From Alphaproteobacteria bacterium (lineage in GTDB: Bacteria; Pseudomonadota; Alphaproteobacteria; Sphingomonadales; Kordiimonadaceae): a stretch of DNA of 64,000 nucleotides. The position numbers were made by a program, and so were the translations under genes. The stretch spans positions 1-64,000 of the forward strand of contig JAJFIS010000029.1 of NCBI GenBank assembly GCA_021774735.1, read 5' to 3'. Below, piece after piece: positions 2,287 to 7,801 of this stretch; the stretch's first letter is position 1, and every line of letters starts with the position of its first letter. The notes beneath the pieces were generated by a model. The model searched no databases and was not told where the DNA came from. It worked only from the letters and a program-made list of their open reading frames with translations.

Positions 2287-3453
2287 ATGAAGCAATTTGC
2301 AAAAATATTAATAACACTATCTTTTTTTACATCATTCGCCGCACAAGCTGAAATTTTGGCGATGGTGAGCTATGAAACCAAGAGCGCGGACAGTCTAAAA
2401 TCGTTAAAAATTTCAACAAGCAGAGGCCGGGAAGAAGGTGTCGCCATTTTGGATGTCGATCCTGAATCGGATGCTTTTGGCAAAATCCTATGGCAAATGC
2501 CATTGCCTGCGGACCTGACAGCACACCATATATTCTACGACCGGACGATGAAGAAAGCCTATATGACATCCTTGTCGAAAAAGGAGCTTTATGTCTTTGA
2601 TATGGGGTCTTTTCCTATCCGCCATAAAATTCTCGATGTGAATTGCTCCATGGGAGAGGATGTCATCTTTAACGAGGATAACAGCCGTTGGTATTTAACC
2701 TGCATGGGTTCGGCCAATGTTATTGTTGGTGATGTGGTTACCGACAAAATTATTGATGATATAAGTCTGCCCGACAGCTACCCGCATGGTTTGGCGGTTA
2801 ACACTTCTATCAACCGTATTTTGGTAACCAGCACCATCAAGGGAGATCTGACCGATCCACGGGAGGTTATTACCGAGGTTGATGCCACAACCCATGAAGT
2901 GCTCGGCGTCCATAAGATGAGCAACAAGCCGACGCCGTCAGGTGTTGCACCGGTGGAAGTTCTTTTCGCACCGGGGGCATCAAGGCCCACCGCCTATGTT
3001 ACCAATATGTTTGGTAATACCATTTGGACAATGACGTGGGACGCAGCAACATCCAAGTTTGAAACAAATGAAGCCCATGCCTTTGATGGCAATGAAACCG
3101 GTGTGCCTTTGGAAATATACTTCACCGATGATGGCACACGGATGTATATAACCACTGCGGCGCCGGGGCATTTTCATATCTTTGACGTTAGCTCAGGCGA
3201 TGGCCACCCTAAGCATATGAAAACATTCAAGGTCGGCGAAGGCGCGCACCATGTTGGTTTCACCAAGGATGGCCGCTATGGCATCGTGCAAAACTCGTTT
3301 CTTAACCTGCCGGGCATGTCATCGGGCACTATTAGCGTCATCGACCTGAAAACCAATGAAGTGATTGACACAATCACGTCGCTGTCTGATGCGGGTTATA
3401 ATCCGAATGTGATTGTTCTATTGCCAGAATGGAATGCCTTCCTCGGTCACTGA
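2287..3453 (+). CDS. Secreted YncE/cytochrome-D1-like beta-propeller protein
   Basis: 388 aa beginning with a clear Sec signal peptide (MKQFAKILITLSFFTSFAAQA, cleavage near residue 21). The mature part shows repeated blade-like units ending in motifs such as VAILDVDPES, LYVFDMGS, ISVIDLKTNEVID and HIFDVSSG, typical of seven-bladed YncE-like or cytochrome d1-type propellers. No CxxCH motif is present, so it does not itself carry c-type heme. A strong Shine-Dalgarno (GGGAGGGG) precedes the ATG. It is divergent from the cytochrome/membrane protein pair, and such propellers often accompany periplasmic redox or metal systems. The molecular function is unknown. The stop codon is three bases from the start of the 58-bp repeat. 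Confidence 0.75.
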   Translation: MKQFAKILITLSFFTSFAAQAEILAMVSYETKSADSLKSLKISTSRGREEGVAILDVDPESDAFGKILWQMPLPADLTAHHIFYDRTMKKAYMTSLSKKELYVFDMGSFPIRHKILDVNCSMGEDVIFNEDNSRWYLTCMGSANVIVGDVVTDKIIDDISLPDSYPHGLAVNTSINRILVTSTIKGDLTDPREVITEVDATTHEVLGVHKMSNKPTPSGVAPVEVLFAPGASRPTAYVTNMFGNTIWTMTWDAATSKFETNEAHAFDGNETGVPLEIYFTDDGTRMYITTAAPGHFHIFDVSSGDGHPKHMKTFKVGEGAHHVGFTKDGRYGIVQNSFLNLPGMSSGTISVIDLKTNEVIDTITSLSDAGYNPNVIVLLPEWNAFLGH

Positions 3454-3456
3454 TTG

Positions 3457-3514
3457 AGCATGCGTCTTAGGAAATCAGTGTAGATATCGGTTAGCGTTTC
3501 AATGGCGCTAACCG
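3457..3514 (+). repeat. 58-bp direct repeat, left copy (duplicate of dapE 3' end)
   Basis: Positions 3457-3514 are identical to 6666-6723, which is the 3' coding end of dapE. After two mismatches another four bases match. The copy starts three bases beyond the stop of the propeller gene. Its right part is a hairpin, CGGTTAGCG-(9 nt)-CGCTAACCG at 3488-3514; in this copy flanking bases lengthen the stem to 12 bp (3485-3517), while the dapE copy has 9 bp. No T-run follows on the + strand. Confidence 0.95.
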
Positions 3515-3590
3515 ATACATAAATAATGTAACAGATTGCTTTATAATAATTATTACAAAATATTTTTTAATTCATTACTATCTCAAGCTA

Positions 3591-6488
3591 TTAACTCTCA
3601 ATAGAGGTTATGCTTTTGTCTGCTAATGATGGTTTTCCAAGATAATATCCTTGAAAATAGTCAACACCAATAGCATCAACTTGTTCATACACAGACTGGT
3701 CACAAACAAATTCTGCAATTGTTTGGGCGCCAATATTTTTAGAGAACTCTGTAATTAATGAAACAACTTTTTGCGCACTTTCATCATGAGCTATATTTTT
3801 TATGATCGACCCATCTATTTTGACAAAGTCTGGCGCTAGTTTCATTAAATATTCAAAATTAGAGTAGCCGGTGCCAAAATCGTCGATAGCTATTCTACAG
3901 CCAAATTCCTTCATTTCTTCAATAAATTCAAAGACATCATTATAATTCTCAATGCCCTCCGATTCTACTATTTCTAAAACTAAGCGGTGCGCGATTGAGG
4001 ACGTCTGTAATTTATGTGTCAGTATGCTTCTTGTTTTAGGGTTTAGAATGTCTTCAATGGTTAAGTTAATTGAGAAAGATTCAGTACGATCCGAAAAGTA
4101 GGAAAAACTTTTATTGATCATGATCTCGGTCAACTGTGGGTAAAGCCGGGCATATTTAGCAATTTCTAAGAAGAAGAATGGACTTATTTCTTTTCCATCA
4201 ACATCTATCAATCTCATCAAACATTCATATTTATTTATTTGTCCTGTCCTGCGGTCAATAATAGGCTGAATAAAGACTACAATTCGATCATCTTCGATGG
4301 CTCTTTTTATTTTCTTTGTCCATTCCATATTTTCCTTGCTGCGCTTTTGCAAGTCAAATTTGCTGGTGTAAAATAAAAGGGCTTGACGAGACTCTTTAGC
4401 AACTCTTAAAGCCATGCCAGCATTGACATAAACGTTGCCAATCATACTCGCTAGACCCACCGTGGCGGACACATTTATTTCATACTCATTTATATGAAAC
4501 ACATTGTTCTCAAGACTTGAAATGTAGTCTGCACATAATGTCTCAAGCTCATTTTCAGAAAGGGTACTGGTCAAAATAGCAAATTCATCACCTGTTAGCC
4601 TATATACCAATATGTCAGAAAAACTTTCTTTTAGCCGCTCTGAAAATTTAATTAATAATAGATCACCAATATCATTGCCATAGAAATTATTCGCTTCAGA
4701 AAAACGGTCAATATTAATCAGGGCAAGTATTGGCTTATCCATTTCTGTCAAGTCATCAAGTAGCTTCTGCCTGTTAGGAAGGCCGGTTAGATTGTCTGTT
4801 GTATGATTAAGTATTATTTGCTGTTGTCTGAATATTTCAGTGATATCTGTGCGAATTGCCATAAACTCTTGAATATTGTCATCTATATCTAAAATGGGAA
4901 CAATTGTGCTGCTTACATAATAGTCATCACCATTCTTGGCGCGGTTTTGAATGATGCCTTTCCATGTTTTTTTAGAATGAATTGTCTTCCATAAATCTTT
5001 AAAAAGGGATGGTGGAGTTTCAGGATGCCTAATTATACTGTGGCTACTGGAAAGTAATTCTTGAGCGCTATAGCCAGATATTTCACAAAAGGCGTCATTG
5101 ACATATGTTATTCTCCCCCGAGGGTCTGTTTTAGATACAATTGCACTTTCATCAACGGCCTTTTTATACTCATTAAGTAATGATTTGCTGACGACGGCTT
5201 GATGTGTCTGTTTGCGAAGCTCTTTTTCTAGAAGAATATTTAGCTTTCTAAAAGGCTGAATGATTAATTGTTTAAAGAAAAGCGTAAAGGCAATGAGCAA
5301 CGTTAATAAAACTGACGAGATAGTATAAATAAGCATTTCAACAGTGTGATTTATATCCTCCAGCACTTCATGCTTGTCTAATTCAGCAATGAGCACTGTT
5401 TGCTCCCCAAATAGCTGATATGGCTCATAGCTACTGAGCACGGGAACACCTCGGTAATCATTGATTATATGGTTCCCATCTTTGCCTTCCAAGCCAGCCT
5501 CAACTGAGCCTGTCTCCACATGCTGAATACCAACAGTCGTCTTTAATTCTTTGATGAGTGGGCTATCAATATCATTAATGAAGCGACTATTGTTTCTCAT
5601 CGTATGGTCGCTGCCAACAATATATGCTTCGCCACTATTCCCTAAACCTGCGCGCACAAGCTGACCATCAAAAGTCATAATTTTATTAATAGGCTCAACT
5701 GGAATCTGAATAGCAACACTTCCTAAAAGTTCGCCATTGCTATGAATAGGCATAGCTAAGAAGGCCGCTGGAACATTAAAGCTGGGCTCATAAGGTAAGA
5801 AAGATGAAAAAGAAATTTCACCGGGTAAACGCTTAATGGATTTAGTGAACGCATTTGCCAGTCCAGAATTTTGGTAAGGTCCAGTATAAAGATTGGTGGC
5901 AAAGTCAGGCTCTTTCATGACGCTATAGACAATGTTACCCTTAACATCAATTAAGAAAATATCATAAAATCCATGCGCTTTTAAGAACTGTTCAAACTGC
6001 TTATGCGTCGATGTATGAATGGTTTGATAAGGAGATGGTGCCTCTCTATTTTCTTTGTTCAAAATATATTGGTATTGTGCAATTTTAGCTGCATCTGACA
6101 GTGGAATGTAAGCCCTCGGCGACCTTAATTTCTCAGCGTTGGGGATTCCATGATGAATCTTATTAAGATAATTATTTTCGTAGAATTGAAGCAATTCAGC
6201 ATCAATGACAGTAATATCTTGCTTATATTTTTGCTGGTAAAAAGATGAGCTTAATTGCTGTAAAGCGGTGATTGTTGATGGAAGCTGGCTAATTAATGAG
6301 AGGTTTTCTGTCGTATTATCTTGGTAGGAATTTGTGTGCCTTTTCAAGCTCTCACGGATAGAGGTTAATTGCTCAAACCTTGAACTCAGCAATAATTCTT
6401 TTTGATATGACGTTAATGAAATAATGCCTATGGCCATTAAACCAAATAACAAAGTTAGCGCAGTTATAAGTCCAATTTTTATTTTCAT
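3591..6488 (-). CDS. Membrane sensor with PAS, degenerate GGDEF and EAL domains
   Basis: 965 aa from the ATG at 6488. Two membrane helices (about 4-26 and 384-405) bracket a periplasmic dCache-like sensory region. A PAS domain follows (about 440-555), then GGDEF (about 560-720) and EAL (about 730-955). The cyclase signature is TGDEF rather than GGDEF and no RxxD inhibitory site is visible, so diguanylate cyclase activity is doubtful. The EAL motif reads ECL, but the other phosphodiesterase residues are present: INLT, LEIVESE, IDDFGTGYS, VKIDG, AEF and FQGYYLGKP. It most likely hydrolyses cyclic-di-GMP in response to an external signal. The gene is AT-rich and lies alone between direct repeats, suggesting transfer. 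Confidence 0.85.
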   Translation of the reverse strand: MKIKIGLITALTLLFGLMAIGIISLTSYQKELLLSSRFEQLTSIRESLKRHTNSYQDNTTENLSLISQLPSTITALQQLSSSFYQQKYKQDITVIDAELLQFYENNYLNKIHHGIPNAEKLRSPRAYIPLSDAAKIAQYQYILNKENREAPSPYQTIHTSTHKQFEQFLKAHGFYDIFLIDVKGNIVYSVMKEPDFATNLYTGPYQNSGLANAFTKSIKRLPGEISFSSFLPYEPSFNVPAAFLAMPIHSNGELLGSVAIQIPVEPINKIMTFDGQLVRAGLGNSGEAYIVGSDHTMRNNSRFINDIDSPLIKELKTTVGIQHVETGSVEAGLEGKDGNHIINDYRGVPVLSSYEPYQLFGEQTVLIAELDKHEVLEDINHTVEMLIYTISSVLLTLLIAFTLFFKQLIIQPFRKLNILLEKELRKQTHQAVVSKSLLNEYKKAVDESAIVSKTDPRGRITYVNDAFCEISGYSAQELLSSSHSIIRHPETPPSLFKDLWKTIHSKKTWKGIIQNRAKNGDDYYVSSTIVPILDIDDNIQEFMAIRTDITEIFRQQQIILNHTTDNLTGLPNRQKLLDDLTEMDKPILALINIDRFSEANNFYGNDIGDLLLIKFSERLKESFSDILVYRLTGDEFAILTSTLSENELETLCADYISSLENNVFHINEYEINVSATVGLASMIGNVYVNAGMALRVAKESRQALLFYTSKFDLQKRSKENMEWTKKIKRAIEDDRIVVFIQPIIDRRTGQINKYECLMRLIDVDGKEISPFFFLEIAKYARLYPQLTEIMINKSFSYFSDRTESFSINLTIEDILNPKTRSILTHKLQTSSIAHRLVLEIVESEGIENYNDVFEFIEEMKEFGCRIAIDDFGTGYSNFEYLMKLAPDFVKIDGSIIKNIAHDESAQKVVSLITEFSKNIGAQTIAEFVCDQSVYEQVDAIGVDYFQGYYLGKPSLADKSITSIES

Positions 6489-6599
6489 ATTTATCAACAC
6501 TTTATATGCCTCTGGTAATGCCTAGACATTTCTATCTTACCTATCAGCCTATAATAATTTGTAAACGCGCAATATAATACTAATGATTGATTTATGTAA

Positions 6600-6632
6600 T
6601 AAAAATTACCCAATTCGACTGGGTGAATTTAA
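6600..6632 (-). terminator. Terminator-like hairpin after dapE
   Basis: On the minus strand, downstream of dapE, the sequence ACCCA-(7 nt)-TGGGT (6608-6624) can form a short hairpin followed by AATTTTTATT. The stem is only 5 bp, so this is a weak rho-independent terminator candidate. It would separate dapE transcription from the GGDEF/EAL gene on the same strand. Confidence 0.4.
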
Positions 6633-6658
6633 TTTGTTGATTGATAAGAATGTGGGAC

Positions 6659-7801
6659 TTAGGACAGCATGCGTCTTAGGAAATCAGTGTAGATATCGGT
6701 TAGCGTTTCAATGGCGCTAACCGGAACATGTTCATCAATTTTATGCATGGTCGCGCCGATAAGGCCGAACTCTACCACCGGGCACATGTCCTTAATGAAG
6801 CGTGCATCTGATGTGCCGCCAGAGGTGGAAAGCTCAGGTGTGCGGCCTGTATTTGCCTTAATCGCGTCGCTTAAAGCCTCGGTTAAGCTACAGGGTGTCG
6901 TGATGAAACTATCGCCGGATACCCACCAATCGACGCTGTAGCGCTCAACCCCCGCGCTTTGCAGGCGGGTAGTCAGCTCTTCTTTTAAGCTTTCAGGGGT
7001 CCAGACGCTATTAAAGCGTACATTAAAGCGGGCTTTTGCTTCTGCGGGCACCACATTATGGCTTTCATTGCCCACATGCATATCAACAATTTCTAAATTG
7101 CTGGGCTGGAAATGCGCGTTGCCGTCATCTAGTGGCGCTTCTAATGTGGCGAGCAGTTTCACCATATCTGTAATGGGGTTATGTGCCAGATGGGGGTAGG
7201 CCACATGGCCCTGCGTTCCGTGGGTGGTGATAAAACCATGCAGGCTGCCGCGACGGCCAATTTTAATCATTTCACCTAGCGCATTTGGGTTTGTAGGTTC
7301 ACCGACGAGGCAATAATCAAGCTCTTCACCGCGCTCTTGTAGCCATTTTAGCACTTTTCTGGTGCCATTGATCGCCGGTCCTTCTTCGTCTCCGGTTATC
7401 AGGAAGCTGATTGAGCCATTGATATCGGATGCCGCGTTGATATATCGCTCAGCTGCAACGGTGAAGGACGCTATAGCGGCTTTCATGTCAGCCGCACCCC
7501 GGCCATAAAGCTGGCCATCTTTCACTTGCGCCGTAAAAGGCTCAACACTCCAATGGTCTGCGGCACCCACCGGCACGACATCGGTGTGGCCAGCAAAACA
7601 AATGTTGGGGCTAGCCGTACCATAGCGGGCATAAAGGTTGGGCACGTCTGGTGTACCTTCCTCGCTGAAGATTAGCCGGTGACAGGTGAAGCCGAGACCA
7701 GATAAGGCGCTCTCCAATACATCCAAGGCACAGCCGGGGTCGGGCGTTACGCTCTCAGCGCGGATCAAGTCTTGTGCAAGGCTAATAACATTGAGGGTCA
7801 T
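6659..7801 (-). CDS. dapE: Succinyl-diaminopimelate desuccinylase
   Basis: 380 aa, the normal length for DapE, an M20 zinc peptidase that cleaves N-succinyl-LL-2,6-diaminopimelate to succinate and LL-diaminopimelate in lysine and peptidoglycan synthesis. Metal-ligand motifs are visible: AGHTDVVP (H72, D74), YGRGAADMK (about D105) and GDEEGPA (catalytic/metal Glu near 139-140). The C-terminal motif GGTSDARF is also typical. The start follows the dapD stop by 6 nt, so the two genes form an operon. Its last 20 codons are part of the 58-bp direct repeat; the final Ser and stop lie outside it, so the present C-terminus may have been supplied by the inserted segment. Confidence 0.95.
   Translation of the reverse strand: MTLNVISLAQDLIRAESVTPDPGCALDVLESALSGLGFTCHRLIFSEEGTPDVPNLYARYGTASPNICFAGHTDVVPVGAADHWSVEPFTAQVKDGQLYGRGAADMKAAIASFTVAAERYINAASDINGSISFLITGDEEGPAINGTRKVLKWLQERGEELDYCLVGEPTNPNALGEMIKIGRRGSLHGFITTHGTQGHVAYPHLAHNPITDMVKLLATLEAPLDDGNAHFQPSNLEIVDMHVGNESHNVVPAEAKARFNVRFNSVWTPESLKEELTTRLQSAGVERYSVDWWVSGDSFITTPCSLTEALSDAIKANTGRTPELSTSGGTSDARFIKDMCPVVEFGLIGATMHKIDEHVPVSAIETLTDIYTDFLRRMLS
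6666..6723 (+). repeat. 58-bp direct repeat, right copy (inside dapE 3' end)
   Basis: Identical to 3457-3514 and in the same orientation. Here it encodes, on the minus strand, the DapE C-terminal helix from about PVSAIETL to RRML. The hairpin CGGTTAGCG/CGCTAACCG (6697-6723) is present with a 9-bp stem. Confidence 0.95.

Follow-up and report, generated by a model that had tools for sequence, protein, structure and literature searches.

A recombinase-free segment with a GGDEF/EAL gene between att-like repeats of the dapE 3′ end in a Kordiimonadaceae bacterium

The dapE locus and the inserted segment

The DNA analysed here, referred to as the window, is a stretch of 64,000 nucleotides (positions 1 to 64,000 of contig JAJFIS010000029.1, assembly GCA_021774735.1) from an alphaproteobacterium of the family Kordiimonadaceae. 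Its first 150 nucleotides, where the contig starts, hold a 27-bp inverted repeat that is possibly the end of an IS at which the assembly broke. Further inside, dapE, an essential gene that encodes succinyl-diaminopimelate desuccinylase, converges with a gene for a YncE-like beta-propeller protein, and the DNA between them, segment A, has the following anatomy:

2287–3453, + strand: YncE-like beta-propeller gene, convergent with dapE (Pfam)
3447–3453: inferred pre-insertion dapE stop TGA (3447–3449, − strand), beside the propeller stop TGA (3451–3453, + strand) (sequence reading)
3457–3520: left repeat, attL-like, 58 bp exact and 62/64 when extended (repeat comparison)
3485–3517: perfect 12-bp inverted repeat around 9 bp, TATCGGTTAGCG-TTTCAATGG-CGCTAACCGATA, candidate recombinase core site
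3515–3590: noncoding AT-rich insert DNA, from the left repeat to the cargo stop codon (sequence reading)
3591–6500, − strand: intact cargo gene for a PAS-GGDEF(TGDEF)-EAL membrane protein of 969 aa (Pfam)
6501–6665: insert DNA 5′ of the cargo gene, the dapE-side end of which gives a new Ser codon and TAA (6659–6664)
6666–6729: right repeat, attR-like, coding 3′ end of dapE (repeat comparison)
6659–7801, − strand: dapE, the target, with its frame kept (Pfam Peptidase_M20 and M20_dimer)

Pairwise comparison within the window shows that positions 3457–3514 and 6666–6723 are direct repeats with 58/58 identity, exactly where the initial annotation had placed them. The copies extend to 3457–3520 and 6666–6729 with 62/64 matches and a start-to-start spacing of 3209, and both mismatches sit together, close to the right edge. 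A chance origin of the 58-bp pair is negligible, and no further copy of the repeat was found in the host's own genome. The right copy had been described as the coding 3′ end of dapE; it does lie inside dapE, but the last codon and the stop codon are just outside the repeat. These, together with one more base, occupy positions 6659–6665, in insert-derived DNA. The present dapE ends with TCC TAA supplied by the insert, giving the tail RRMLS*. The left copy, when read in that frame, runs on with CTC AAT CAG TGA, and RRMLNQ* is the former DapE tail predicted when the two flanks are joined.

The DNA between the repeats comprises 3,151 bp and has a foreign composition, with a G+C content of 0.358, whereas the 1.5-kb flanks have 0.455 and 0.535. 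This matches the AT-rich interior of about 3.15 kb with a single cyclic-di-GMP gene reported initially, as does the absence of an integrase. Because the single ORF of 969 aa fills all but 76 bp and 165 bp of noncoding DNA, segment A has no space for an integrase, and neither the ORF list nor the Pfam analysis revealed a recombinase inside it.

The N-terminal part of the cargo protein has stretches that look like membrane segments, and the PAS (E-value 7.9e-15), GGDEF (1.2e-17), and EAL (2.7e-58) domains follow. The GGDEF motif reads TGDEF, the EAL-domain motifs ECLMR, DDFGTGYS, and KIDGS are all there, and the protein aligns with PA0861 (5xgb) and further EAL proteins. It is likely a c-di-GMP phosphodiesterase, as predicted from its sequence, and the function of its cyclase half is uncertain. 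With a G+C content of 0.366, the cargo ORF falls in the lowest 1% of 1,281 sampled own-genome ORFs (≥200 aa), and it is the only one so low among the 292 that reach 500 aa. No orthologue or full-length relative was found in 60 relatives. In 384 further genomes from the class, no match reached E ≤ 1e-90, and viral contigs gave no match. The best partial matches, 39–43% identical over the C-terminal half, belong to other members of the phylum and to one Sulfurimonas plasmid.

Tyrosine recombinases bind paired arms flanking a short spacer. An arrangement of this kind is present at 3485–3517, where the right arm of the inverted repeat is insert-derived and belongs to the left copy, and its inverted-repeat score is matched by 0.05% of random 82-bp windows of the own genome. 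In the right copy (6666–6729), the inverted repeat measures just 9 bp (CGGTTAGCG / CGCTAACCG). Searches for the attachment core elsewhere in the own genome and in viral contigs were negative, as was one that covered 300 genomes from the order and tolerated up to 3 mismatches, and a search on plasmids did not find the insert-end sequences of segment A.

The dapE site in relatives

The dapE gene is present in 61/61 genomes, and the closest sequences (69–70% identical) come from Kordiimonas and other Kordiimonadales, all compared relatives being outside the host genus. These relatives have a single dapE end, but with different neighbours from those of the host; the propeller gene, at E ≤ 1e-20, is missing from 30 relatives. 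The initial annotation had named two observations that would speak against an insertion, namely a second dapE end in relatives that lack the cargo gene, or a cargo gene that is ancestral and just as AT-rich across the genus. Both were looked for, and no relative holds a second dapE end, even in a sensitive scan, or the cargo gene. It had also proposed a search for integrase-bearing insertions at the dapE 3′ end, which gave a negative outcome: none was found in the genomes compared, and none of the 72 loci with more than 3 kb of downstream DNA holds a larger element there. In two genomes (L091 in G010 and L092 in G003), an AT-rich gene (G+C 0.33–0.46) adjoins dapE (0.65) on its downstream side, and no repeat of ≥12 bp accompanies it. 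A literature search returned no paper plainly reporting dapE as an integration site.

Sister segments in the same genome

Direct repeats were scanned in about 2.03 Mb of the own genome, in separate stretches representing roughly 73% of it. Four segments were found to be AT-rich by ≥0.09 G+C between direct repeats, and 4/4 are located at a gene 3′ end. Segment A is thus one of at least four segments of one to three genes in this genome, each at a different gene 3′ end. The other three, AT-rich by 0.09–0.13, 1.3–2.8 kb in size, and with cargo mainly for toxin-antitoxin or defence functions, are as follows:

Segment B (L145:8583–10452, contig C7): LysR gene end, 28-bp exact repeat, 1.84 kb, AbiEi and AbiEii
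Segment C (L204:5876–7154, contig C11): hydrolase end, 22-bp repeat, 1.26 kb, Fic and a 68-aa ORF
Segment D (L249:6055–8887, contig C21): yicC end, 20-bp repeat, 2.8 kb, AbiEii-like toxin and PDC-S31

Segment B has a G+C content of 0.388 vs. 0.517, and its toxin stop codon lies 14 bp from the repeat. Segment C adjoins a convergent Mg-chelatase-like gene. In segment D, the two yicC copies show a synonymous difference. When extended, all four pairs show diverged target edges (A, 62/64; B, 41 bp at 93%; C, 40 bp at 80%; D, 33 bp at 91%), and since these edges are diverged target sequence, each insert appears to have carried its own copy of the gene end. The exact repeats range from 20 to 58 bp and have no motif common to the four, so that one recombinase cannot account for all of them. 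An inverted-repeat core was found in A alone, and not in B, C, or D.

A control scan of 1.19 Mb around dapE in 80 other genomes, which covers one chromosomal region and uses a threshold picked after A–D had been seen, gave no repeat pair with an interior poorer in G+C by ≥0.05. Other repeats of the own genome (L252, L239, L150, L157, and L177) were set aside because they were judged to be gene duplications, regulatory repeats, or RHS/IS-like repeats, and four more (L192, L195, L183, and L232) were left out of the segment count. At L232:9759–11975, a 134-bp exact repeat, with copies 2.08 kb apart, surrounds an ABC permease and an ATPase in DNA that is not AT-rich. At L195:7006–9297, a 28-bp repeat, with copies 2.26 kb apart, gives two different ORFs a common 3′ end and stop codon.

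Empty and occupied sites at yicC and LysR

The site of segment D can be compared directly with its empty form, as the yicC-gmk gap measures 14–122 bp in 27/29 relatives, while it is occupied in the host. An independent insert of 1.4 kb (L264) occupies the same gap in G007, which belongs to another genus. It carries one serine-hydrolase-like gene, has a G+C content of 0.318, and is flanked by diverged copies of the yicC end. The gmk-side copy encodes the conserved QNIE*, whereas the yicC-side copy encodes QNIQ*, so that this element must have arrived with a gene end of its own. The 380 kb of G007 that were sampled revealed no case besides this insert. At the LysR site, coordinates alone indicate that the partner gene, a cyclophilin-HEAT gene, is 11–85 bp away in 10 relatives, where the site is empty. 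The distance is 331 bp in one more relative and 1.4–2.6 kb in five others (G002, G008, G009, G011, and G023), where the site is occupied. From this occupancy in relatives, it follows that both gene ends have been used repeatedly. The yicC 3′ end is in fact a known target of tyrosine integrases (PMC5704250, PMC8409611).

Candidate recombinases

Three genes with a PF00589 domain were found in the own genome. Two of them are Xer-sized, and the third, on contig C43, has a tRNA-like 3′ end next to it. This third gene (L130:241–1338) encodes a tyrosine integrase near repeated tRNA-like 3′ ends (1588 and 10145) and phosphate-uptake genes. As the sole PF00589 gene that is not Xer-like, it was considered as the integrase partner and rejected on account of its location at a tRNA-like 3′ end. 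The PF00589 search, which covers recombinases of the tyrosine type, did not find one of fitting specificity in the own genome. As no recombinase is encoded in the element, a tyrosine recombinase would have been supplied in trans, or would since have been lost.

Comparison with known systems

Among known kinds, CIMEs and restriction-modification units inserted with a long target duplication come nearest to segment A. Autonomous IMEs, ICEs, and prophages have a recombinase of their own, which segment A does not. Judged by its anatomy, segment A fits the structural definition of a CIME (PMC5704250), with attL/attR-like repeats at a gene 3′ end and no integration or transfer genes. Unlike CIMEs, the segments described here hold 1–3 genes in 1.3–3.2 kb and occupy several unrelated targets in one genome, and no larger relative was found at their sites. 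The islands found at ssrA in Dehalococcoides (PMC3146451) are similar in that many att-flanked cargo islands without integration genes occur in one genus; however, all of them use one tmRNA site and have integrase-bearing partners, whereas various protein-gene ends are used here and no partner was found.

Segment D and the G007 insert share the yicC 3′ end with IMEs and MGIs such as MGIVflInd1 and SGI1-like elements (PMC8409611, PMC5704250), but these published elements are tens of kb long and encode a tyrosine integrase, which neither of the two inserts has. Restriction-modification units inserted with a long target duplication, known from the work of Kobayashi and co-workers through passages in PMC3031569 and PMC3874152 that cite Nobusato 2000 and Furuta 2010, also consist of a small unit with addictive or defence cargo between long target repeats, in the absence of a recombinase. 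In contrast, the cargo here is c-di-GMP, AbiE, Fic, or PDC-S31 and includes no restriction-modification system, and the repeats look insert-carried rather than target-copied because they are found at gene 3′ ends with diverged edges. The minimal mobile elements of Neisseria are named in a passage of PMC3082526. They are alike in that single genes located between two conserved genes are exchanged, with no mobility genes involved. Nevertheless, their exchange takes place by homologous recombination of both flanks and is not known to leave a target repeat. An integron gene cassette was also considered and rejected, as the 58-bp repeat fits the attC ends (RYYYAAC / GTTRRRY) neither in order nor in letters.

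Origin of segment A

The layout had initially been recognized as fitting an integrated element by which the target gene is restored, and this reading gains from the foreign composition, the lack of a cargo orthologue, the att-like repeats, and the three sister segments. Segment A is probably a cargo-only, att-flanked integrated element, whose recombinase either acted in trans or has been lost. According to the proposed mechanism, a circular DNA with the GGDEF/EAL gene and an attachment site mimicking the last ~60 bp of dapE would have recombined with the dapE 3′ end, with a crossover inside the 58-bp identity, possibly within the 9-bp spacer that separates the inverted-repeat arms. Each end would then have been left with one hybrid copy of the repeat, and the dapE-side copy would have rebuilt the frame with a last codon and a stop encoded by the element, which yields RRMLS* instead of the presumed RRMLNQ*. 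The tyrosine recombinase would have been supplied in trans or deleted afterwards. Several observations weigh against this proposal: no fitting recombinase was found, the inverted-repeat core is limited to segment A, and no empty dapE site was found. Moreover, 58 bp of identity between attP and attB in a poorly conserved gene end requires a source very close to the host.

The strongest competitor, although clearly less probable, is that segment A is what remains of an IME, ICE, or prophage at the dapE end that lost its integrase and transfer genes while keeping attL, attR, and one gene. It involves the same site-specific step, and only the history of the recombinase differs. CIMEs are documented (PMC5704250), as are 15 Dehalococcoides ssrA islands without integration modules (PMC3146451), and toxin-antitoxin genes such as those in B–D resist loss, but the cargo of segment A is no toxin-antitoxin pair. 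In addition, A–D consist of whole genes packed near the repeats with no recognisable integrase fragments, and decay to 1–3 genes at four sites, together with yicC in another genus, would be a repeated coincidence. Of the three possibilities offered in the initial annotation, a recombination product is the least likely, and sequence alone does not separate a minimal element mobilised in trans from a decayed island; even so, the compact, whole cargo near the repeats and the use of several sites modestly favour mobilisation in trans.

It is rather unlikely that a linear or circular fragment was inserted with a long, variable duplication of the target, with no sequence-specific recombinase taking part. 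This phenomenon is known and explains a segment with no recombinase, and it agrees with repeat lengths that vary (20–58 bp exact) and have no common motif. However, fresh target copies should be identical and have unrelated flanks, while the mismatches found here cluster at the edges and the sequence beyond the repeats still resembles the target. The yicC end is used in two genera, and the LysR end is occupied repeatedly, both of which point to site preference. Site-specific integration is therefore preferred over plain target duplication because of the diverged edges, the gene ends reused across genera, and the coincidence of one of them with a published tyrosine-integrase site.

Ordinary homologous recombination is improbable, whether through a RecA-type crossover with a circle or fragment that bore the dapE end of a relative, or through a duplication in situ. 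A 58-bp identity could allow rare exchange, and the synonymous change in the yicC repeat of segment D is of the kind found in orthologous DNA, but the identities of 20–22 bp in C and D are rather short for such exchange, and this reading does not explain why breakpoints lie at 3′ ends, why frames are kept, and why the same ends are used repeatedly. Lastly, an assembly error or a chance repeat can practically be dismissed, for although this is a 51-contig draft genome and the window starts at a contig end, the 58-bp exact repeat is beyond chance, the insert is internal to one 152-kb contig, and segment D matches empty sites in 27 relatives.

A possible wider class of cargo-only elements

A much bolder proposal, which is speculative and rather doubtful at present, is that many bacteria hold cargo-only elements, in which 1–3 genes, often for toxin-antitoxin, defence, or signalling functions, are combined with an attachment site able to restore the 3′ end of a core gene. 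These elements would depend wholly on the recombinases of others and would use the same gene ends as landing sites in many genera. If so, their relation to integrases would parallel that of MITEs to transposases, and dapE would be one more protein gene with an end used for integration. Such a class, if real, would have a signature searchable in any genome, consisting of a second copy of a gene 3′ end at a distance of a few kb, AT-rich DNA in between, and diverged repeat edges, and it would account for the spread of single defence or signalling genes where no mobile element is visible.
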